Assembly: GCA_010906935.1 (NCBI GenBank)
Contig: JAAFHC010000022.1
Coordinates: 1-40,219, forward strand
Source of the DNA: Gelidibacter sp.
Lineage (GTDB): Bacteria > Bacteroidota > Bacteroidia > Flavobacteriales > Flavobacteriaceae
Direction: 5' to 3'
DNA: 40,219 bases
Shown here: in pieces, positions 992-28,197 of the stretch
Numbering within the stretch: position 1 is the first letter of the stretch
How the letters are laid out: each line of letters opens with the position of its first letter
Translations under genes and position numbers: made by a program
The notes under the pieces: generated by a model
What the model was told of the DNA's origin: nothing
Databases searched by the model: none
Seen by the model: only the letters and a program-made list of their open reading frames with translations

Positions 992-2980
992 ATGCTATTT
1001 AAATTAGAATCTAATTTCAAACCTACCGGCGACCAGCCCGAAGCAATCAAACAACTTGTTGAAGGGTTAAACTCCCATGAAAAATTTCAAACATTGTTGG
1101 GTGTTACAGGTTCAGGTAAAACATTTACGATAGCAAACGTAATTCAGGAAGTCCAAAAGCCAACCTTGGTTTTGGCGCATAACAAAACATTGGCGGCACA
1201 ACTTTATTCAGAATTTAAACAGTTTTTTCCAAATAATTCAGTGGAATATTTTGTTTCTTATTACGATTATTACCAGCCCGAAGCGTATCTTCCAACCACA
1301 GGAACTTTTATCGAAAAAGACTTGTCCATCAACGAGGATATAGAAAAATTGCGAATCAGCGCTTCCTCTGCCCTGCTTTCAGGACGAAGAGATGTCATTA
1401 TTGTGGCTTCAGTATCGTGTATTTACGGCATTGGGAATCCGGTTGAATTCAAGAAAAACATCATTTATGTTGAAGTCGGCCAAGCCATTTCGCGTACCAA
1501 ATTTTTGCACCAATTGGTTGCGAGTTTGTATTCGAGAACCGAAGCCGAAATTAGCAGCGGAACTTTTAAAGTGAAAGGCGATACCATCACTGTTTACCCT
1601 TCATATGGAGAACACGCCTTCAGAATTCACTTTTTTGGCGATGAAATTGAAGAAATTGAAAGCTTTGACGTCACCAACAATCTGGTTGTGGAAAAATTTG
1701 AGCAAATCACCATTTATCCGGCAAATTTATTCGTGACTTCACCCGATGTTTTGCAGCATGCGATCCATCATATTCAGGAGGATTTAATGAAACAATTTGA
1801 ATACTTCAAAGAAATCGGAAAACATTTGGAAGCAAAACGCCTGAAAGAACGCACAGAATTTGATTTGGAAATGATTCGTGAATTGGGTTATTGCAGTGGC
1901 ATTGAAAATTATTCCCGTTATCTCGACGGAAGAGCAGCCGGTACGCGCCCTTTCTGTTTGCTGGATTATTTTCCCGAAGATTATTTAATGGTGATTGACG
2001 AAAGCCATGTAACAATCCCGCAAGTTCATGCGATGTATGGCGGCGACCGATCGCGCAAGGAAAATTTGGTAGAATACGGGTTCCGATTGCCGGCGGCGAT
2101 GGACAACCGTCCGCTTAAATTTGACGAATTCGAAGACATCCAAAATCAGGTGATTTTTGTGAGCGCCACACCGGCGGATTATGAATTGCAAAAAACAGAA
2201 GGCGTTTTCGTGGAACAGGTCATTCGTCCGACAGGATTGTTGGATCCCGAAATTCAGGTACGGCCAAGTATCAACCAAATAGATGATTTAATTGAAGAAA
2301 TACAATTGAGGGTTGAAAAGAATGAACGCACCTTGGTCACCACGTTAACCAAGAGAATGGCAGAAGAATTGACGAAATATTTAAGCAGAATCCAAATTCG
2401 CTGCCGTTACATTCACTCTGATGTTGATACTTTGGAGCGCGTTGAAATTATGCGCGATTTGCGTTTGGGAATATTTGACGTGCTTATTGGCGTGAATCTT
2501 TTGCGTGAAGGACTCGATTTGCCTGAGGTTTCTTTGGTAGCGATTTTAGATGCAGACAAGGAAGGTTTTTTGCGTTCGCACCGCTCTTTAACCCAAACCA
2601 TTGGCCGTGCCGCAAGAAATATCAACGGAATTGCCATTATGTATGCCGACAAAATAACCAACAGCATGCAACTCACCATCGACGAAACAAACCGTCGCCG
2701 CGAAAAACAAATTGCCTACAATACTGCAAATAACATCACTCCTACTCAAATTATAAAGAGCATAGAAAATATTATGGGGCAAAACACCGCTTCAACCTAT
2801 AATTTTGAAAATTTGGCAAACATTGCTGCCGAAGAAAAAATGGATTATATGACGAAGGCGGAATTGGAAAACAGCATTCGCGAAAAACGCAAACAAATGG
2901 AAGAAGCCGCCAAAGCACTCGACTTTATCGCTGCCGCAAAATTACGGGACACCATTAAAAAATTAAAAGAGCGGATTTAG
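992..2980 (+). CDS. uvrB: UvrABC excinuclease subunit B
   Basis: Full-length UvrB (662 aa, family norm 660-680), the damage-verifying helicase-like subunit of nucleotide excision repair that takes DNA from UvrA and recruits UvrC. Walker A GVTGSGKT lies at residues 37-44 (Lys43). The beta-hairpin that locks damaged DNA is at about 90-99 ([10 protein letters not shown]). The Walker B region reads VIDESHV, the C-terminal helicase half has the QTIGRAARN motif VI, and the UVR coiled-coil domain that contacts UvrC closes the protein (last ~40 residues). The ATG at 992 gives the canonical N-terminus [17 protein letters not shown]. It sits alone between a T9SS cargo gene and convergent fsa. Confidence 0.98.
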
Positions 2981-3003
2981 TTTGGTTATTGGATTTATAA
3001 AAA

Positions 3004-3033
3004 AAGTTTTATGAAACGAATTTCATAAAACTT
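3004..3033 (-). terminator. Hairpin terminator between uvrB and fsa
   Basis: A perfect 13-bp stem (AAGTTTTATGAAA / TTTCATAAAACTT) with a CGAA loop. On the minus strand it is followed by seven T residues, so it should best terminate the fsa transcript; it may also stop uvrB readthrough since the two genes converge here. Confidence 0.7.
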
Positions 3034-3130
3034 CTTATAAATAATATCAATAAAGGGCTTTAAAGGTCTTTACCAACTATTTTCAGTATTACTTCTAAAA
3101 TTAAATATTTCAATTTTATTTACAAATGAA

Positions 3131-3158
3131 CTTTTTAACTTTTAACTTTTAACAAAAA
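3131..3158. repeat. Short TTTTAACT-type octamer tract at fsa 3' end
   Basis: Three tandem CTTTTAA-type words lie just past the fsa stop. Read in the fsa direction they are GTTAAAAGTTAAAAG. It is the same low-complexity family as the tracts at 3911-3957, 10667-10918 and 26036-26465. Confidence 0.6.
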
Positions 3159-3160
3159 AA

Positions 3161-3814
3161 TTAGTTTCCTTTTTTATAATCTGCCAAAAACTGAGCTAAT
3201 CCTATGTCTGTTAACGGGTGTTTCAACAATCCCATAATGGCAGATAAAGGTCCGGTCATCACATCGGCGCCTAATTTTGCGCAATCGATAATATGCATGG
3301 TATGGCGCACTGAAGCTGCCAAAATTTCAGTTTCATAACCGTAATTATCGTAAATAAGTCTGATTTCAGAAATAAGATTTAATCCGTCTGTAGAAATATC
3401 ATCCAACCTTCCTATAAAAGGCGAAACATAAGTCGCTCCTGCTTTAGCAGCCAACAAAGCTTGTCCGGCCGAAAAAACCAAAGTCATATTCACGCTAATA
3501 CCTTTGTCTGTAAAATATTTACACGCTTTAATTCCGTCAGCAATCATCGGTAATTTAACCACAATTTGCGGGTGTAAATCGGCCAATGCTTCCCCTTCTT
3601 TAACCATTCCTTCAAAATCAGTCGCAATCACTTCGGCACTTACATCACCATCAACAATATTGCAAATTGCCACATAATGTTTTAAAATATTGTCTTTTCC
3701 CGTAATGCCTTCTTTTGCCATTAAGGAAGGATTTGTAGTTACGCCATCTAAAACACCCAATGCTTGTGCTTCTTTAATTTGCTCGAGGTTTGCTGTATCA
3801 ATAAAAAATTTCAT
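3161..3814 (-). CDS. fsa: Fructose-6-phosphate aldolase / transaldolase-like protein
   Basis: A 217-aa short TalC/FSA-type member of the transaldolase family, a cytosolic class I aldolase. The N-terminus MKFFIDTANLEQIKEA, the GVTTNPSL motif (residues 24-31) and the Schiff-base lysine in VVKLPM (Lys87) are all present, with the later SPFIGRLDD and HPLTDIGL segments. Whether it acts as a transaldolase (pentose phosphate pathway) or as a fructose-6-phosphate aldolase cannot be decided from the motif view; many genomes label this subfamily transaldolase (tal). It is monocistronic, with a -7 element about 29 bp upstream and a terminator beyond its stop. Confidence 0.93.
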   Translation of the reverse strand: MKFFIDTANLEQIKEAQALGVLDGVTTNPSLMAKEGITGKDNILKHYVAICNIVDGDVSAEVIATDFEGMVKEGEALADLHPQIVVKLPMIADGIKACKYFTDKGISVNMTLVFSAGQALLAAKAGATYVSPFIGRLDDISTDGLNLISEIRLIYDNYGYETEILAASVRHTMHIIDCAKLGADVMTGPLSAIMGLLKHPLTDIGLAQFLADYKKGN

Positions 3815-4758: not shown

Positions 4759-4789
4759 TGAATGATTGAAAAATTAAAATATTAAATAG

Positions 4790-4890
4790 TTGGGCGTTCC
4801 CGCTGAAAAGGCGGTCGGGCTTTCCGTTACAATCTTTTTTTGCGGAGAAAAATCCTCAAAAAAAGTATTTTCACTACAATCCTTAACGCA
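4790..4890 (+). repeat. Dispersed intergenic repeat, copy A
   Basis: About 100 bp containing GCGGTCGGGCTTTC, then CAATCTTTTTTT, then TCCTCAAAAAA, ATTTTC and CCTTAACGCA. The same blocks in the same order occur on the minus strand at 22221-22343. It lies between the first SDR gene and the SRP RNA gene and has no convincing coding capacity. The block 4759-5327 otherwise holds only this repeat, the SRP RNA and two promoter elements. Confidence 0.75.
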
Positions 4891-5036
4891 AAAATCAGCA
4901 CCAATTAGCATTTGTCCAATTAGGGCAATCTTTAATAATGGATCAAAAGTAAGCTATTTATTGAGATTTTAAAAGTCCTTTTCTTTGGAAAGTCAACTTG
5001 CCAGCCGGCAGGGATTTAAGATAGGAGAGAAAAAAA

Positions 5037-8839: not shown

Positions 8840-10663
8840 ATGAAGTATTTCAGACAAATATTGGTTTATGCCAAACCTTATAAAATATATGGTGTTTTAA
8901 ACATTATCAGCAATATTTTTTATGCTTTGTTTGGAACATTGGCGTTTGTTTCATTAATGCCGATGTTAAAAGTACTGTTTAAAACGGCGGAACCCATCAA
9001 AGCAAAACCTTCTTATGAAAGCATTTCAAAACTGGGTGACTACATTGAAAACTCCATCAACTACTTCATTACCGTCAAAGTAAACAATGAAGGCGAAATG
9101 AAGGCTTTGCTGTTTATGATTGTGATTGTCATCAGTACTTTTTTGCTTAAAAATATTTTTGGCTATTTAGCGATGTACTTTATTACCTTTTTACGAAATG
9201 GCGTTTTAAAGGACGTTCGGAATGATTTGTATGAAAAAACAGTCGATTTGCCGTTGGCTTATTTTTCAGAAAAAAGAAAAGGAGATATCATCGCAAGAAT
9301 TTCTACAGATGTGCTGGAAATTCAACATTCCTTTTTGTCTATTTTAGAGTTGATTGTTAGAGAACCTTTAATGATTTTATTTACCATTATCGCGATGCTG
9401 GCTTTAAGTCCGCAATTGACCTTATTTGTTTTTATTTTTATTCCGATTGCTGGAATCGTCATTTCATTGGTAGGGAAAAAATTAAAAAAACAATCGGATA
9501 AAGTTCAAAAAGAGCAGGGTTATTTTTTATCCATTTTAGAAGAAACTTTAGGCGGATTAAGGGTGATCAAAGGCTTTAATGCTGAAGGCTATTTCAATTC
9601 AAAATTCAAGGAATCAACCTCACGTTTTTACAGATACTCGAATTCCTTACTGAACAGGCAAAATTTGGCGTCACCATTAAGCGAGTTTTTGGGAATTGGC
9701 GTTATTGCGGTGTTACTTTGGTATGGAGGATCATTGGTTTTGGTTTCAAAAACATTGGCTCCCGATGCTTTTATTGTTTTTATGGGCTTGGCTTACAACA
9801 TTTTAACGCCAGCAAAAGCAATTTCCAAAGCAGCTTATGGCGTTAAAAAAGGCGATGCCGCCGCGGAACGTGTTTTGGAAATTTTACATACGACCTCGCC
9901 TTTGGCCGATAAACCAAATGCGCTTGTAAAAGAAGGATTTAATTCAGCCATCAGCATTGAAAATATTTCATTTAAATATGAAGATGACTATGTGCTTAAA
10001 AATTTCTCTTTGGAAATACCCAAAGGAAAAACAGTGGCTTTTGTCGGACAATCGGGTAGCGGGAAATCGACCATCGCCAATTTACTGACGCGTTTTTATG
10101 ATGTAAATGAAGGCAGTATTAAAATTGACGGCATCGACATTCGTGACATCACAAAAAAATCATTACGCAGTCTGCAAGGCCTTGTTTCTCAAGATTCTAT
10201 CTTGTTTAACGACAGCATCAAAAACAATATTTTATTGGGTATCGAAAATAAAACAGCGTCAGAAATTATGGATGCCGCCAAAATTGCGAATGCCCACGAA
10301 TTTATTGATGAGATGCCAAACGGCTACGATTCAAATATTGGCGACAGCGGAAACAAACTTTCGGGTGGACAAAAACAGCGGTTGAGCATTGCGCGTGCCG
10401 TATTGAAAAATCCGCCCATCATGATTTTGGATGAAGCCACTTCTGCCCTGGATACAGAATCTGAACGTTTGGTGCAGGATGCCTTGGAAAAAATGATGAA
10501 AAACCGCACTTCGGTGGTGATTGCGCACCGACTTTCAACGGTTCAAAAAGCGGATATTATTGTTGTTATGAAAAAAGGCAAAATAGTAGAACAAGGAAAC
10601 CACGAAGAATTGATCGCCAAAAATGGCGTTTATACCAAGTTGGTGGAAATGCAAACGCTATAA
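8840..10663 (+). CDS. ABC exporter, fused permease-ATPase (MsbA-like)
   Basis: 607 aa half-transporter. The N-terminal half carries about six membrane spans (first at ~15-40, then ~90-120, ~165-215, ~280-325). The ATPase domain follows: Walker A GQSGSGKST near residue 400, the Q-loop in LVSQDSILFND, the signature LSGGQKQR near 508, Walker B MILDEATSALD near 530, and the H-loop IAHRLST near 563. Exporters with this layout flip lipid A-core or other lipids; MsbA is the closest classic model, and lipid export would fit the envelope genes nearby. Drug export cannot be excluded. It is followed directly by a repeat tract. Confidence 0.92.
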   Translation: MKYFRQILVYAKPYKIYGVLNIISNIFYALFGTLAFVSLMPMLKVLFKTAEPIKAKPSYESISKLGDYIENSINYFITVKVNNEGEMKALLFMIVIVISTFLLKNIFGYLAMYFITFLRNGVLKDVRNDLYEKTVDLPLAYFSEKRKGDIIARISTDVLEIQHSFLSILELIVREPLMILFTIIAMLALSPQLTLFVFIFIPIAGIVISLVGKKLKKQSDKVQKEQGYFLSILEETLGGLRVIKGFNAEGYFNSKFKESTSRFYRYSNSLLNRQNLASPLSEFLGIGVIAVLLWYGGSLVLVSKTLAPDAFIVFMGLAYNILTPAKAISKAAYGVKKGDAAAERVLEILHTTSPLADKPNALVKEGFNSAISIENISFKYEDDYVLKNFSLEIPKGKTVAFVGQSGSGKSTIANLLTRFYDVNEGSIKIDGIDIRDITKKSLRSLQGLVSQDSILFNDSIKNNILLGIENKTASEIMDAAKIANAHEFIDEMPNGYDSNIGDSGNKLSGGQKQRLSIARAVLKNPPIMILDEATSALDTESERLVQDALEKMMKNRTSVVIAHRLSTVQKADIIVVMKKGKIVEQGNHEELIAKNGVYTKLVEMQTL

Positions 10664-10666
10664 AAA

Positions 10667-10918
10667 AGGTTATTGGTTATTGGTTATTTGTTGAATTGTT
10701 TAACTGTTTAATCGGTTAATCGTTTAATCGTTTAACCGTTTAGTCGTTTAACTGTTTTTTATTACCTTGAACTTTTAACCTTTTAATCGTTTAATCGTTT
10801 AACTGTTTAGTCGTTTAATTTTTTTTATTGCCTTTCTAGCTTTTCGTTTTGAGCTTTCAGCTTTTAGCTTTTAACCTTTGACCTGCCTCCGGCAGGCAAG
10901 CTTTCAGCTTTTAACATT
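10667..10918. repeat. Modular low-complexity repeat tract between exporter and RES toxin gene
   Basis: The whole interval is repeat-like. It opens with GGTTATTGGTTATTTG, continues with 8-nt words (GTTTAATC, GTTTAACT, GTTTAGTC), then the block TTTTTTATTACCTT, then CTTTTAA/GCTTTCA words and a CCTGCC/GGCAGG palindrome. The 26 bases at 10738-10763 are identical to 26348-26373, and the 34 bases at 10882-10915 are identical to 26431-26464. The tract ends right at the RES stop codon. No gene is visible. Confidence 0.8.
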
Positions 10919-10919
10919 T

Positions 10920-11378
10920 CTATCTAAACAATCTTTTATCAAATGGAAAATTGTATGAATTTGAAATTTTAATACGCTTAAAATCACTATGAAAGGGATT
11001 GATAAGAAAATTAAAATCACCTTTTACAACTGCAGAAGGAACTTGTAACAAGCAAAATTTATGTTGATTTATAAAATGATCTCCAATTTGTTGTGTCGAT
11101 TGCAGGTGTGGAAATATATTCCAATCTGGCGGAAGGTTTTTTTCATCAATTTTATCAATAATGATATTATTTGGAATATCAATTTCCAACATTAAGTAAT
11201 CATTCGGCAATAAAGCTAAATTTAAATGTACTGCTACCTCTGCCATGGCAAGCGCTCTACTGCTTGCACAGTATATCATTTCAGTTCTTTTAGAATTCCA
11301 CCTGTTTCCAGAATAAGAGGCTCCTTTACCCGACAATTCTTCTGAATATTTTTTTCTGGACAATCTAAATACTTTCAT
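10920..11378 (-). CDS. RES-domain toxin (NAD-degrading type) of a RES/Xre toxin-antitoxin module
   Basis: 152 aa, the usual size of RES toxins. Seen: MKVFRLSR at the start, GNRWNS (25-30), YCASSRALAMAEVAVH (36-51) with Glu47, and QVPSAVV with Ser115. Conserved Arg, Glu and Ser residues gave the family its name. Known of the family: RES toxins (MbcT and the Pseudomonas putida homologue) destroy NAD+ and are neutralised by a DUF2384 Xre partner. The ATG shares one base with the antitoxin stop (TAATG), implying translational coupling. The module sits between repeats and tRNA-processing genes, so it may be acquired. Confidence 0.9.
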   Translation of the reverse strand: MKVFRLSRKKYSEELSGKGASYSGNRWNSKRTEMIYCASSRALAMAEVAVHLNLALLPNDYLMLEIDIPNNIIIDKIDEKNLPPDWNIFPHLQSTQQIGDHFINQHKFCLLQVPSAVVKGDFNFLINPFHSDFKRIKISNSYNFPFDKRLFR

Positions 11379-15102: not shown

Positions 15103-15918
15103 TTAAACAGCAACATCATTTTCGCGTAGCGCATCATTTAACGAAGTTTTTTTATCGGTGCTTTCCTTGCGTTGTCCAATAATTAAGGCACAAGGAACCT
15201 GATAGTCTCCCGCAGGAAATTTTTTGGTGTAACTTCCAGGAATTACTACTGATCGCGCAGGAACATAGCCTTTAATTATTTTAGGTTCATTTCCAGTAAC
15301 ATCTATTATTTTTGTAGAACCTGTAAGCACTACATTGGCGCCCAAAACAGCTTCTTTTTCCACGCGAATTCCTTCAACAACAATACAACGAGAACCCACA
15401 AAAACGTTGTCCTCAATAATAACGGGAGCTGCCTGTAAAGGTTCCAACACGCCGCCAATGCCAACGCCGCCGCTTAAATGCACATTTTTGCCTATTTGCG
15501 CACAGCTTCCAACGGTTGCCCAAGTATCTACCATAGTGCCTTCATCTATATAAGCGCCAATATTTACATAGCTTGGCATTAATATAGTTCCTGCAGAAAT
15601 GTAGGAGCCATAACGTGCCACTGCATGAGGCACCACACGAATTCCCTTTTCTTTATAACCTCTTTTTAAAGGTATTTTATCGTGATATTCAAAAATGCCT
15701 ACTTCAAACGTTTCCATTTTCTGAATCGGAAAATACAACACCACCGCTTTTTTTATCCATTCATTTACTTGCCATCCATTTTCTGTTGGTTCCGCAACTC
15801 TTATAACTCCGTTATCCAACAAATCAACCACTTCGCGAATGGCGTTTTGGGTAATTTCTTCTTTTAACAATTCCCTGTTTTCCCAAGCGCGTGCTATTAT
15901 TTCTTTAAGTGCTTTCAT
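15103..15918 (-). CDS. dapD: 2,3,4,5-tetrahydropyridine-2,6-dicarboxylate N-succinyltransferase
   Basis: 271 aa, the normal DapD length. A helical N-terminal domain (to about residue 100) precedes a left-handed beta-helix with hexapeptide repeats: GTILMPSYVNIGAYIDEGTM, VDTWATVGSCAQIG, VHLSGGVGIGGVLEPLQ and IEDNVFVGSRC. The GSYTKKFPAG segment lies near the C-terminus. The enzyme uses succinyl-CoA in the lysine/meso-diaminopimelate pathway that supplies peptidoglycan. It is divergent from ruvX, with a predicted -7 element about 130 bp upstream and a palindrome in the long leader, and ends at a strong terminator. Confidence 0.96.
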   Translation of the reverse strand: MKALKEIIARAWENRELLKEEITQNAIREVVDLLDNGVIRVAEPTENGWQVNEWIKKAVVLYFPIQKMETFEVGIFEYHDKIPLKRGYKEKGIRVVPHAVARYGSYISAGTILMPSYVNIGAYIDEGTMVDTWATVGSCAQIGKNVHLSGGVGIGGVLEPLQAAPVIIEDNVFVGSRCIVVEGIRVEKEAVLGANVVLTGSTKIIDVTGNEPKIIKGYVPARSVVIPGSYTKKFPAGDYQVPCALIIGQRKESTDKKTSLNDALRENDVAV

Positions 15919-15955
15919 CTGTTTAAATTTTATTTTTTAGCGGTAACAGCTGCAG

Positions 15956-15976
15956 CCTGCCTGCCGGACAGGCAGG
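15956..15976. repeat. CCTGCCTG/CAGGCAGG palindrome in the dapD leader
   Basis: Perfect 8-bp arms around CCGGA, 38 bp upstream of the dapD ATG. Related palindromes (CCTGCC/GGCAGG) occur at 10882-10896 and 26431-26445, and a weaker form at 4997-5012. It could form a hairpin in the dapD 5' leader. Confidence 0.6.
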
Positions 15977-16049
15977 TTCGCCATTAATCATTCCTGTGTG
16001 TATCAAAATTTGATATGCTCGTTTCATTCCTTTATTTTTCTGTTTGGCA

Positions 16050-21942: not shown

Positions 21943-22220
21943 TAATTTATATAGATAACAATGATATTATCTCCTAATAATTGCCAATTGTTATGCCAAA
22001 AAACCTATTCAACCTGATTATTTTTTTAGTAATTTTAAATAAATTATAATTCAACCTATTTTTTGTAATTGTTTGATATTATTCTTTGGGGAAAATGGCA
22101 AAAGGTGAAAGTTCCAATGGTGGTATTGTGCCGCGACATAAATTAGTTGTGGTGACCTATTAAACTTTATTAACTGATACGTTAGCCTGATTTTTTTAAA
22201 ATCCCAATTCGTAATTCAAT

Positions 22221-22343
22221 TTGTGTTAGGGTTTGAAGCGAAAATCCTTTTTTGAGGCTTTTCCGCTGAAAAAAAGATTGAAGCGAAAGCCCGACCGCAT
22301 TTTTATGGGGGTTTGCCCGCCGAAAAATGCGGTAACACCCAAA
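22221..22343 (-). repeat. Dispersed intergenic repeat, copy B (inverted relative to copy A)
   Basis: Read on the minus strand it gives GGGTGTTACCGCA, GCGGTCGGGCTTTC, CAATCTTTTTTT, GCCTCAAAAAAGGATTTTC and CCCTAACAC, matching copy A at 4790-4890 block by block. This copy has an additional ~20 bp between the first two blocks. It occupies much of the 556-bp gap between lon and the sigma factor gene; the rest of that gap (21943-22220) shows no gene. Confidence 0.75.
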
Positions 22344-25203: not shown

Positions 25204-26034
25204 TTATTTAGTTTCGTCCTTTGTTTTACGAAACATAAAATACAATCCCATAATAATAAGTGGAATGCTTAAAACCTGTCCGGTATTGAGTCCTAACATC
25301 CAATTCTCGCCTCCTTCAACCTGTTTTTCCTTGAAAAATTCCACAAGAAATCGAACCGACCAAAGCAATGCAAAAAACAATCCGAAAAGATAGCCCGATT
25401 TCTTCATTTTATCGGTTTTCCAATACACGAACCACAGGAGAATAAATACCAAAAGATACCCAAATGCCTCGTACAATTGTGATGGATGGCGTGGAAAATC
25501 TTCCCCCAATTGTCTAAATATAAAACCGTAATCCGAATTTGTTGGTTTTCCGATAATTTCAGAATTCATTAAATTCCCCAATCGGATAAAAACACCGGCA
25601 GCAGCAACTGGAATCGTAATTCTGTCTAAAATAAACAGTATTGGTTTTTTCAACACATTTTTACTGAAAAAATACATGGCGGTAATTATCCCAATAACCG
25701 CGCCGTGACTGGCCAAACCGGCATATCCCGTAAATTCAAATTTTGGCGAAAAACGGAAAGGCAGCAACACTTCCAAAGGTTTTCTGAAGAAAAATTCAGG
25801 TTCATAAAACAGGAAATGCCCAATTCTTGCGCCTAACAATGTTCCGATAATCGTATAAATAAACAAAGAATCCAATTTTTCAATAGGAATATTGTCATTT
25901 ATAAATATCTTTTTCATCAAAAACAACCCTAACATAAAGGCAATTACAAACATTAAACTGTAGTACCTAACAGCAAACGAGCCAATTTTAAAAATTTCGG
26001 GTGAAGGATTCCAATCTATTTGAAGTAGTATCAT
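25204..26034 (-). CDS. lgt: Prolipoprotein diacylglyceryl transferase
   Basis: 276 aa, about seven membrane spans. The signature motifs are RIGHFLFYEPEFF, GLASHGAVIGI, the family signature RLGNLMNSEIIGKPT, and RHPSQLYEAFGYL. It transfers the diacylglyceryl group from phosphatidylglycerol to the lipobox cysteine of prelipoproteins at the inner membrane. The lipoproteins at the right end of this window are expected substrates. The cysS-yidD-lgt order is recurrent in Flavobacteriia; here a repeat tract of about 450 bp separates yidD and lgt and ends 2 bp before the lgt start. Confidence 0.97.
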   Translation of the reverse strand: MILLQIDWNPSPEIFKIGSFAVRYYSLMFVIAFMLGLFLMKKIFINDNIPIEKLDSLFIYTIIGTLLGARIGHFLFYEPEFFFRKPLEVLLPFRFSPKFEFTGYAGLASHGAVIGIITAMYFFSKNVLKKPILFILDRITIPVAAAGVFIRLGNLMNSEIIGKPTNSDYGFIFRQLGEDFPRHPSQLYEAFGYLLVFILLWFVYWKTDKMKKSGYLFGLFFALLWSVRFLVEFFKEKQVEGGENWMLGLNTGQVLSIPLIIMGLYFMFRKTKDETK

Positions 26035-26035
26035 A

Positions 26036-26380
26036 GTTGTTTATTTGTTTGTTTAACTGTTTAGTTGTTTAATCGTGTAACTGTGAACTGTGAACTGTGA
26101 ACTGTTTAACTGTTTAGTTGTTTAGTTGTTTATTTGTTTAATCGTGTAACTGTGAACTGTTTAGTTGTTTAGTTGTTTAGTTGTTTAATCGTTTATTTGT
26201 TTAATCGTGTAACTGTGAACTGTTTAACTGTTTAGTTGTTTAATCGTGTAACTGTGAACTGTTTAACTGTTTATTTGTTTAGTTGTTTAATCGTTTATTT
26301 GTTTAATCGTGTAACTGTGAACCGTTTAATCGTTTAATTGTTTAACTGTTTAGTCGTTTAACTGTTTTTTATTGCCTTTA
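26036..26380. repeat. Tandem octamer tract (GTTTAACT / GTTTAGTT / GTTTAATC family)
   Basis: About 42 contiguous words of 8 nt (sometimes 7) drawn from a small set: GTTTAACT, GTTTAGTT, GTTTAATC, GTTTATTT, GTGTAACT and the heptamer GTGAACT. GTTTAATC, GTGTAACT, GTGAACT recur in that order at least five times, a higher-order repeat. There are no spacers and no coding potential. The right end carries the TTTTTTATTGCCTT block also found at 10755-10768 and 10814-10833. It occupies the yidD-lgt gap. Confidence 0.9.
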
Positions 26381-26465
26381 ACTTTTAACTTTTAACATTT
26401 AACTTTTAACTTTTAACTTTTAACATTTAACCTGCCTCCGGCAGGCAAGCTTTCAGCTTTTAACC
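26381..26465. repeat. ACTTTTAA-word tract plus CCTGCC/GGCAGG element
   Basis: Tandem AACTTTT and AACATTT words (26381-26430), then 34 bases (26431-26464) identical to 10882-10915, which contain the CCTGCC-TCC-GGCAGG palindrome followed by AAGCTTTCAGCTTTTAAC. It continues the octamer tract toward the yidD stop; 26466-26486 holds only CCGCCTTCGGGGGTT, another small GC-rich piece. Confidence 0.8.
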
Positions 26466-26486
26466 CGCCTTCGGGGGTTAGGGAGC

Positions 26487-26717
26487 TTACGGAACCGGAT
26501 CATACCCATGTCCGCCCCAAGGATTGCAACTCACAATTCGTTTGATTGACAACCAACCTCCTTTAAAAATTCCATGTTTTTTTAAAGCATCTATGGTATA
26601 ACTTGAACACGTCGGCGAATATCTGCAACTTGATGGCAAATACGGTGAAATGGCTGCCTGATAAAAACGCACCAGCCAAATAAATGGAATTGCCAATATT
26701 TTAGTAATCGTTTTCAA
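26487..26717 (-). CDS. yidD: Membrane protein insertion efficiency factor YidD
   Basis: 76 aa. The family core is complete: [20 protein letters not shown], then [13 protein letters not shown] and [20 protein letters not shown], with the conserved cysteines. It is a small inner-membrane-associated protein that assists YidC-dependent insertion. The start is TTG 26717 with no ATG alternative. It begins one base after the cysS stop, so translation is probably coupled. Beyond the stop lies the repeat tract. Confidence 0.95.
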
Positions 26718-26718
26718 A

Positions 26719-28197
26719 CTAATTTATGGAAAATGTGGTTCCTTCTTTTCCGTCTTTAAGCTGAATTCCTAAAACCGCGAGTTCGTCACGAATTTTGTCA
26801 GATAGCGCCCAATCCCTATTGTCACGCGCTTCTTTACGCATTTTGATCAACATTTCAACAACACCGTTTAATTTATCGCAGGCATTCTCTTCTGAATTGT
26901 TTTGCAAACCCAAAACATCAAAAACAAAAATATTCATGGTGTTTTTAAGTGTTTCTAGATCAGTTGCAGAAATGGTTTCCTTTTTTTCAAGCAATAAATT
27001 CACGTATTTTACCGCTTCAAATAAATTGGCAATCAACACCGGACTGTTAAAATCGTCGTTCATGGCCTCGTAACATCTTTGTTTCCAGTCGTTAATATTG
27101 ATAGATGACACTTTAACTGCTTCAATGTTTTCAAGATTATTTAAGGCTTCCATCAGTTTCATATAGCCTTTTTCAGCAGCTTCCAACGCATCATTCGAAA
27201 AATCCAACACACTTCGGTAATGCGCCTGCATCATAAAAAAACGTGTGGCACTTGGCGAAAACGCCTTGCTTAAAATCTTATTTTCTCCCGTAAAAATTTC
27301 ATTGGGCAAAATATAATTTCCGGTGGATTTTGCCATTTTCTGCCCGTTTAAAATCAGCATATTCGCATGCATCCAATAATTCACCGGATTCACCTTGTTT
27401 TTCACTTTAGATTGTGCAATCTCACATTCGTGATGCGGAAATTTCAAGTCCATTCCGCCACCGTGAATGTCAAATGTTTCTCCCAAATATTTTGTGCTCA
27501 TGGCAGTACATTCCAAATGCCACCCGGGAAAACCTTCTCCCCAAGGTGAAGGCCAACGCATAATATGTTTTTCTTCCGCTTTTTTCCAAAGGGCAAAATC
27601 TTGCGGATTTTTCTTTTCCGATTGTCCGTCCAACTCTCTTGTATTGTGAACAGATTCTTCGATATTCCTGCCTGAAAGAATTCCGTAATGTTCTGTTTCA
27701 TTGTATTTTAATACATCAAAATATACAGATCCATTTACTTCATAAGCCATTCCTTTGGCTAAAATATCTTTAATAATTTCAATTTGCTCAACGATATGTC
27801 CGGTTGCAGTAGGCTCAATACTTGGTGGCAAATTATTCACTTTTTGAAGCGTTTCATGAAAATCGACCGTATAGCGCTGCACCACTTCCATGGGTTCAAT
27901 TTTTTCTATTCGCGCTTTTTTGGCAATTCGGTCTTCGCCTTCATCTGCATCATTTTCCAAATGCCCGGCATCGGTAATATTGCGCACATAACGCACCTTA
28001 TAACCCAACTGTTTTAAATAACGAAAAACCAAATCGAAGGACATAAAAGTCCGTACATTTCCCAAATGCACATTGCTGTAAACCGTTGGTCCGCATACGT
28101 ACATGCCAACATTTCCTTCAACAATGGGTTTGAAAATTTCTTTAGATTTACTTAAAGAATTGTATATTTTGAGCTGATTTGTTTTGTATAATTCCAT
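26719..28197 (-). CDS. cysS: Cysteinyl-tRNA synthetase
   Basis: 492 aa class I synthetase. The zinc ligand Cys35 is in [19 protein letters not shown], where HLGN is the HIGH-type motif. WHLECTAMS and [19 protein letters not shown] carry the remaining zinc ligands. The KMSKS loop reads [10 protein letters not shown] near residue 290, a tolerated variant of the motif. The C-terminal helical anticodon-binding part includes [15 protein letters not shown] and [16 protein letters not shown]. It charges tRNA-Cys in the cytosol. It heads a cysS-yidD unit. Confidence 0.98.

Follow-up and report, generated by a model that had tools for sequence, protein, structure and literature searches.

Locus and tract architecture

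The window, by which we mean the whole 40,219-bp stretch of Gelidibacter sp. DNA analysed, carries cysS, yidD, and lgt together with a tract of short tandem words in the 452-bp gap between yidD and lgt (26035–26486) (Table 1). Because all three genes are encoded on the minus strand, the tract directly precedes the lgt start codon, and on the lgt sense strand its units read as tandem words of the type RRNTAAAC.

Table 1. Positions of the genes and repeat features discussed in the text (window coordinates)
Feature	Position	Strand	Remarks
Second octamer tract (degenerate)	10690–10820	+	Between two stop codons
lgt, prolipoprotein diacylglyceryl transferase	25204–26034	-	PF01790, E 3.5e-59
Word tract, 41 units	26039–26363	-	GTTTA-type words on the + strand; 4 bp from the lgt ATG
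63-bp period within the tract	26049–26242		TRF, 3.1 copies, 85% matches
102-bp block duplication within the tract	26119–26345	+	TRF, 2.2 copies, 92% matches
TTTAACT heptamer tract	26377–26431	+	yidD side of the gap; TRF, 7.9 copies, 93% matches
GC-rich palindrome CCTGCCTCCGGCAGG	26431–26445		Between the heptamers and yidD; read from the sequence
GC-rich palindromic stretch CCCGCCTTCGGGGG	26464–26477		Close to the yidD stop codon; read from the sequence
yidD, upstream neighbour of lgt	26487–26720	-	PF01809, E 1.2e-30; approximate start codon
cysS, cysteinyl-tRNA synthetase	26719–28197	-	PF01406, E 1e-98

When positions 26036–26380 were cut at each GTTTA, GTGTA, or GTGAA, 41 units were obtained, 34 of 8 nt and seven of 7 nt. 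They belong to nine word types, six of which account for 38 of the 41 units: GTTTAGTT and GTTTAATC (eight copies each), GTTTAACT and GTGAACT (six each), and GTTTATTT and GTGTAACT (five each); GTGAACC, GTTTAATT, and GTTTAGTC occur once each. A 4-nt piece, GTTT (26047–26050), breaks the tract after its first word (26039–26046), and the remaining 40 words are unbroken (26051–26363). An earlier note on this DNA had described the whole gap as about 42 contiguous 8-nt units. The units do adjoin one another and are drawn from few words, but they number 41, seven of them are heptamers, there is one break, and the gap also holds TTTAACT heptamers and two GC-rich palindromes. The trio GTTTAATC–GTGTAACT–GTGAACT, previously counted at least five times, is present in four exact copies, and a fifth copy ends with GTGAACC. 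The word order is semi-structured, as had been noted, and its recurrence fits the two block duplications (63 and 102 bp). Across 200 third-order Markov simulations of the window, runs reached at most one unit in 179 cases and two units in 21, compared with an observed run of 40 words (39 octamer lengths).

The tract consists of adjoining 7–8-nt units without unique spacers and is thus not a CRISPR, in agreement with the earlier note, and its words, judged by eye, lack the palindromy of REP/BIME units; REP-like hairpins are found next to or inside some arrays. No Rfam covariance model matched inside the tract at its gathering score. The motif TAnnTTTG/TAnnTTG, which we take to be the Bacteroidota −7 promoter motif, was absent from both strands of positions 26036–26440. 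The second tract of the window is flanked by an ABC transporter gene (8840–10663, plus strand) and a RES-domain gene (10920–11378, minus strand) and, lying between two stop codons, is not a leader.

The window also contains dispersed repeats of other kinds. Two matches to the Flavo-1 RNA (4809–4894, minus strand; 22221–22300, plus strand) both overlap copies (4783–4889 and 22206–22343) of an intergenic repeat of approximately 90–139 bp, found in eight gaps in the sampled part of the genome, including loci L038, L047, L054, L067, L171, and L173; in this case, Flavo-1 may belong to a dispersed repeat rather than being an RNA gene present in one copy. A second element, of approximately 95–110 bp with a CCTGCCTGCCGG-type palindrome (15918–16014), fills the gap between the tetrahydrodipicolinate succinyltransferase and RuvX genes and occurs in other gaps (L063, L162, L163, and L173), with copies 81–94% identical.

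Distribution of the words in the genome, genus, and phylum

The words are not confined to the yidD–lgt gap. The two-word pattern GTTTANYYGTTTANYY gave 125 matches genome-wide (68 + 57) versus nine (4 + 5) for the reversed pattern used as a control, and the 100 of the 125 matches listed form 38 clusters, one of them inside an ORF. Within the genus, 13 of 38 genomes have 23–125 two-word matches, and the other 25 have 0–10. These 13 genomes are that of the window, those of 11 close relatives (Lgt 91–95% identical), and G023, whose Lgt is known only from a poor fragment. Across the family, a three-word match was found in 30 of 299 genomes, and scattered occurrences extend to other Bacteroidota: scanning of named genomes returned at least 118 stretches, and the 80 examined carry, by their titles, 68 Bacteroidota names and 12 others. 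A tandem-repeat scan independent of the words found 34 intergenic arrays of period 5–10 in 339 kb of the window's genome (array regions excluded), 26 of which have a period of 7; there were 17 such arrays in 399 kb of the relative G029, and the outgroup G026 had seven in 400 kb.

Arrays precede a gene for a 188-aa protein, presumably efp, in four clade genomes, Flavobacterium potami, and an Aequorivita MAG. Family-wide conservation at this gene was considered and rejected: of 30 family loci, 27 were readable, five of these had units (including that of the window's genome), and only the window's genome had runs, so that among the 26 other readable genomes four had a single unit and none a run. 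Arrays therefore recur at this gene and are not conserved there.

Two further arrangements were observed. In one gap of contig G000:C196 (L049, about 2779–3423), heptamer arrays form a long chain with changing words (TTTAACT, CTTTGAG, and CCTATAA) that is broken by a run of N. In several Flavobacterium species, the words form, by eye, imperfect inverted repeats that fill their gaps, with GTTTAAYY next to one gene and RRTTAAAC next to the other (L176, L177, L190, L232, L233, and others), and a hairpin between the neighbouring genes is possible at these loci.

The lgt locus and shared array sites in relatives

The lgt locus was compared in 11 close and 18 more distant genomes of the 38 in the genus, eight others being outside the comparison. 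In nine of the 11 close relatives, the yidD–lgt gap measures 60, 110, 135, 151, 259, 277, 282, 470, and 693 bp; in the other two, the contig ends (G021) or the yidD stop codon was not found (G014). A GTTTA word is present in the lgt leader of 10 of the 11, and in G021 a GTTT run extends up to the contig end. The long gaps hold other repeats, and that of G034 also a long word-free stretch. In the 18 more distant genomes, the gap spans 17–126 bp (17 measured) and contains no word runs by eye. Among the lgt loci compared, the 41-word tract was seen only in the window's genome, and the number of words ranges from 0 to 41. Copy number at lgt thus varies between relatives, which are species and not strains, as is characteristic of slippage, and the strong differences in length and word order at the orthologous locus are what the expansion proposed in the earlier note predicts.

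In the lgt leaders of G034, G032, and G011 (L069, L070, and L077), a REP-like hairpin (CTTCGACT...CGCTCAG) lies inside the octamer arrays, and it is also present in two other leaders (L048 and L107); in four of these five leaders it directly follows GTTTC, as if inserted into a word. The lgt leader of G027 (L074) carries a run of GTGTAATT words, three of which are identical and consecutive, suggesting recent single-unit slippage.

Among the matches listed, 51 start-adjacent arrays from four genomes belong to 30 genes, 17 of which have such an array in at least two genomes. Summed over genome pairs, the array-site genes overlap 26 times versus 0.33 expected under random placement among an assumed 2900 genes. 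The array sites are therefore inherited and common to relatives.

Word vocabulary and signals of growth

We tallied 412 words in 87 tracts of four genomes (G000, G011, G014, and G029), whose arrays are samples among the matches listed and were collected with an expression that admits certain words only. Most frequent are the words in which ATC (70), ACT (68), TTT (59), or ATT (51) follows GTTTA. Plain single-unit slippage predicts an enrichment of identical neighbouring words, and the 29 such neighbours observed among 315, versus 37.9 in shuffles, count against growth of that kind. An excess of identical words was found instead at lags of six (z 2.9) and 15 words (z 2.4), which, together with the 63- and 102-bp periods of the lgt tract, is the pattern expected of tandem block duplication.

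No four-word phrase was common to different loci of the window's genome, versus 0.5 expected by shuffling. As the words are shared and the phrases are not, the vocabulary is shared and the order is local. Slippage does not explain the shared word set. In alignments of orthologous arrays, the GTTTA core was 88–95% identical, the tails 64–76%, and the sequence outside the units 77%, the core value being inflated because the alignment method pairs every GTTTA with every other one. Loss of mismatch repair is not supported as a cause: the window's genome encodes both mutS1 (C201) and mutL (C116). A mutS match was missing from G027, a 62% complete genome among the 11 close relatives, of which G014 had mutS in pieces and G031 had no full mutL.

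Orientation at start and stop codons

The arrays are strongly polar at start codons, a property absent from the earlier note. Among the 114 clade tracts in the matches listed, those with a start codon within 40 bp point away from the gene in 52 cases and toward it in three (p 1.5e-12). In a second set of 83 tracts at 80 loci of other genomes, drawn from at least 118 stretches, the numbers were 33 and two (p 4e-8), with loci that were chosen by word pattern and include repeated copies of the same Flavobacterium gene pair. In both sets, a tract in a short gap could be counted at both ends, and gene starts were simple ORF calls. At stop codons within 60 bp, there was no bias (29:28 in the clade and 20:23 in the second set). 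Within 40 bp, the ratios were 24:9 (p 0.014) and 18:11 (p 0.26), so the contrast between starts and stops is not clean at that distance, and within 100 bp they were 30:49 (p 0.042) and 22:30.

The ordinary leaders of three genomes favour TAAAC (86) over GTTTA (38), meaning that the seeds are already oriented and that part of the start polarity reflects seed composition. The same preference exists in the almost array-free outgroup G026 (32 versus 11). The orientation of the arrays at starts is stronger than this seed bias (Fisher p 9.5e-5 in the clade and 1.8e-3 in the second set). Among the matches listed, 16 of 103 tracts are flanked by stop codons on both sides, like the second tract in the window, so that the arrays cannot be accounted for by a leader role alone.

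Predicted folding of array leaders

At 25 °C, the 51 array leaders, in which the array lies 1 to 40 bp from the start codon, have a mean predicted folding energy of −5.5 kcal/mol, versus −13.7 kcal/mol when the leader is flipped, and 49 of the 51 fold more weakly as found than flipped. In 422 ordinary leaders, the means were −10.6 and −12.4 kcal/mol, with the weaker fold as found in 269. Part of this contrast is built in, since an array in its natural orientation was the criterion for choosing the 51 leaders; the contrast shows an effect of orientation and not, by itself, selection. Joined to the initial 30 nt of the gene, the lgt leader was predicted to fold more weakly than all of its 100 shuffles (z +2.46).

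Comparison with known repeat systems

The earlier note knew of no described element of this type, which was too strong a statement. Among open-licence PMC papers, the closest known system is that of the TAACTGA direct heptamer repeats, which were described from marine Beggiatoaceae, some Cyanobacteria, and five Bacteroidetes (MacGregor 2015, PMC4679880). In the parts of that paper drawn on here, sets of these repeats lie just upstream of start codons, and long sets occur in several Bacteroidetes and Cyanobacteria. Like the tract, they are short direct repeats that lie mainly between genes (25 of 170 sets being exceptions) and have one main orientation (147 of 170 sets toward the start codon, Table 1 of that paper), some sets are split by related words, and they are scattered across lineages (PMC4679880, same parts). 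The long Bacteroidetes arrays have other heptamers alongside, and, as in the array leaders here, for which the folding test is partly by construction, there is no predicted RNA structure according to the same parts of PMC4679880. There are also differences: as far as those parts describe it, the TAACTGA unit is a single, exact heptamer, repeated two to six times per set in the main genome, whereas here up to 41 units of 8 or 7 nt vary around GTTTAAYY (plus strand). The arrays here further differ in their higher-order blocks, in the turnover of words at orthologous sites, and in the existence of tracts near stop codons, where orientation is biased little or not at all. No exact TAACTGA tandem unit is among the tract words (GTTTAATC, GTTTAACT, GTTTAGTT, etc.). 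The tract has the habit of the TAACTGA repeats but a different unit.

Cyanobacterial STRR heptanucleotide repeats are degenerate short tandem words, dispersed intergenically and thought to evolve by slipped-strand mispairing. They share the dispersed, degenerate-word habit and are set apart, by their description, by phylum, words, and unit length. LSSRs (Mrazek et al. 2007, as cited in the parts of PMC4679880 used here) have units of 5–11 nt, for which slippage has been proposed, with heptamers as the commonest class in most genomes. The predominance of period 7 among the intergenic arrays of the window's genome resembles them, whereas here the likeness of neighbouring units does not exceed that in shuffles. 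The leaders of Flavobacterium johnsoniae, which lack Shine–Dalgarno sequences, are A-rich with low predicted structure before the start codon, like the array leaders, but are described in the part of PMC6847099 considered here as non-repeat sequences with single named positions (−3, −6, −12, and −13).

Origin and putative role of the tract

With a probability of about one half, we regard the tract as a degenerate satellite that arose through slippage and the duplication of blocks and has been tolerated or favoured as an unstructured leader with a putative function. A degenerate short tandem repeat would have grown in place in the lgt leader, the growth steps probably being strand slippage and tandem block duplication. 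The seeds would be TAAAC-containing leader words, which are favoured in the ordinary leaders of the genus, and the tract words would have kept mutating within a narrow set. At starts, the arrays are present almost only as an A-rich, G-poor leader, (RRNTAAAC)n-ATG, and selection may preserve this orientation, in which the start codon would stay open. At lgt, the tract would likely serve as a putative open ribosome-landing leader and as a yidD–lgt spacer of drifting length. A long, open leader would suit initiation without Shine–Dalgarno pairing, in which low structure and an A at −3 help. According to the part of PMC6847099 considered here, mRNAs of this phylum, represented by F. johnsoniae, lack Shine–Dalgarno sequences, and initiation is tuned by mRNA structure, with an effect termed "subtle", and by an A at −3.

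The same satellite could instead be neutral, with slippage in AT-rich spacers, an orientation taken over from the A-rich seed leader, and neither selection nor function. The tracts between two stop codons, the large length differences at lgt, the seed bias of ordinary leaders even in G026, and the leaders of the 188-aa gene in the family, with single units and no runs outside the window's genome, all agree with neutrality, which we regard as possible rather than probable, given that the orientation at starts (52:3 and 33:2) exceeds the seed bias (86:38) and that the array sites persist across species. A broader functional proposal, that tandem TAAAC-type words constitute a leader device of the Bacteroidota, a modular ribosome-landing leader with unit number as a translation dial that arose independently of the Beggiatoaceae TAACTGA repeats, appears doubtful. 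Such a device may act through its openness or through the putative binding of bS1 or cold-shock proteins.

Each unit might also be a putative RNA- or DNA-binding site for a cold-shock protein, bS1, or another factor, so that the number of units tunes expression. S1, Csp, and Csr proteins have been proposed for the TAACTGA repeats (PMC4679880, in the parts drawn on here), the words are discrete, common to unrelated loci, and adjacent to starts, and the GTTTA core matches better than the tails between orthologous arrays, albeit with the inflation noted above. The mixed 7- and 8-nt spacing, the variable distance to the start codon in the 51 tracts, the tracts between stop codons, and the range from no words to 41 at a single locus make a binding array improbable.

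Dispersal of units or phrases by a REP/RAYT-like transposase, a reverse transcriptase, or another template-copying enzyme, an origin also raised in the earlier note, is very unlikely. The same words do occur at many loci, REP-like hairpins lie inside some arrays, and octamers are followed by heptamers on the same strand in 14 of 18 heptamer tracts, the other four being on the opposite strand and the 5′ side. Y1_Tnp (PF01797) matches were found in 12 of 12 clade genomes (that of the window and the 11 relatives), in G023, and in seven of 25 others, a link that is confounded, because shared ancestry explains it equally. Counted by locus, no word order is common to different loci, which does not bear out the excess of four-word phrases seen when counting by tract (seven versus 1.1); moreover, the sites are shared by descent beyond chance. 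KOPS and recombination hot spots are replication-linked polar sequences, and such a sequence, oriented by replichore, would match the polar octamers and the several contigs of the window's genome with tracts on one strand among the matches listed, but is hardly credible here, since the strand changes within tens of kb (G029 C4: 15 kb, minus; 67 kb, plus; 103 kb, minus) and the polarity goes with start codons.

Natural leaders in which one A-rich unit occurs in varying number upstream of orthologous genes of sister species constitute a ready-made experiment on how ribosomes of the Bacteroidota locate start codons in the absence of Shine–Dalgarno pairing. The short-repeat leaders in unrelated phyla suggest one rule, namely that, near start codons, it is mainly the open orientations of expanded words that survive.
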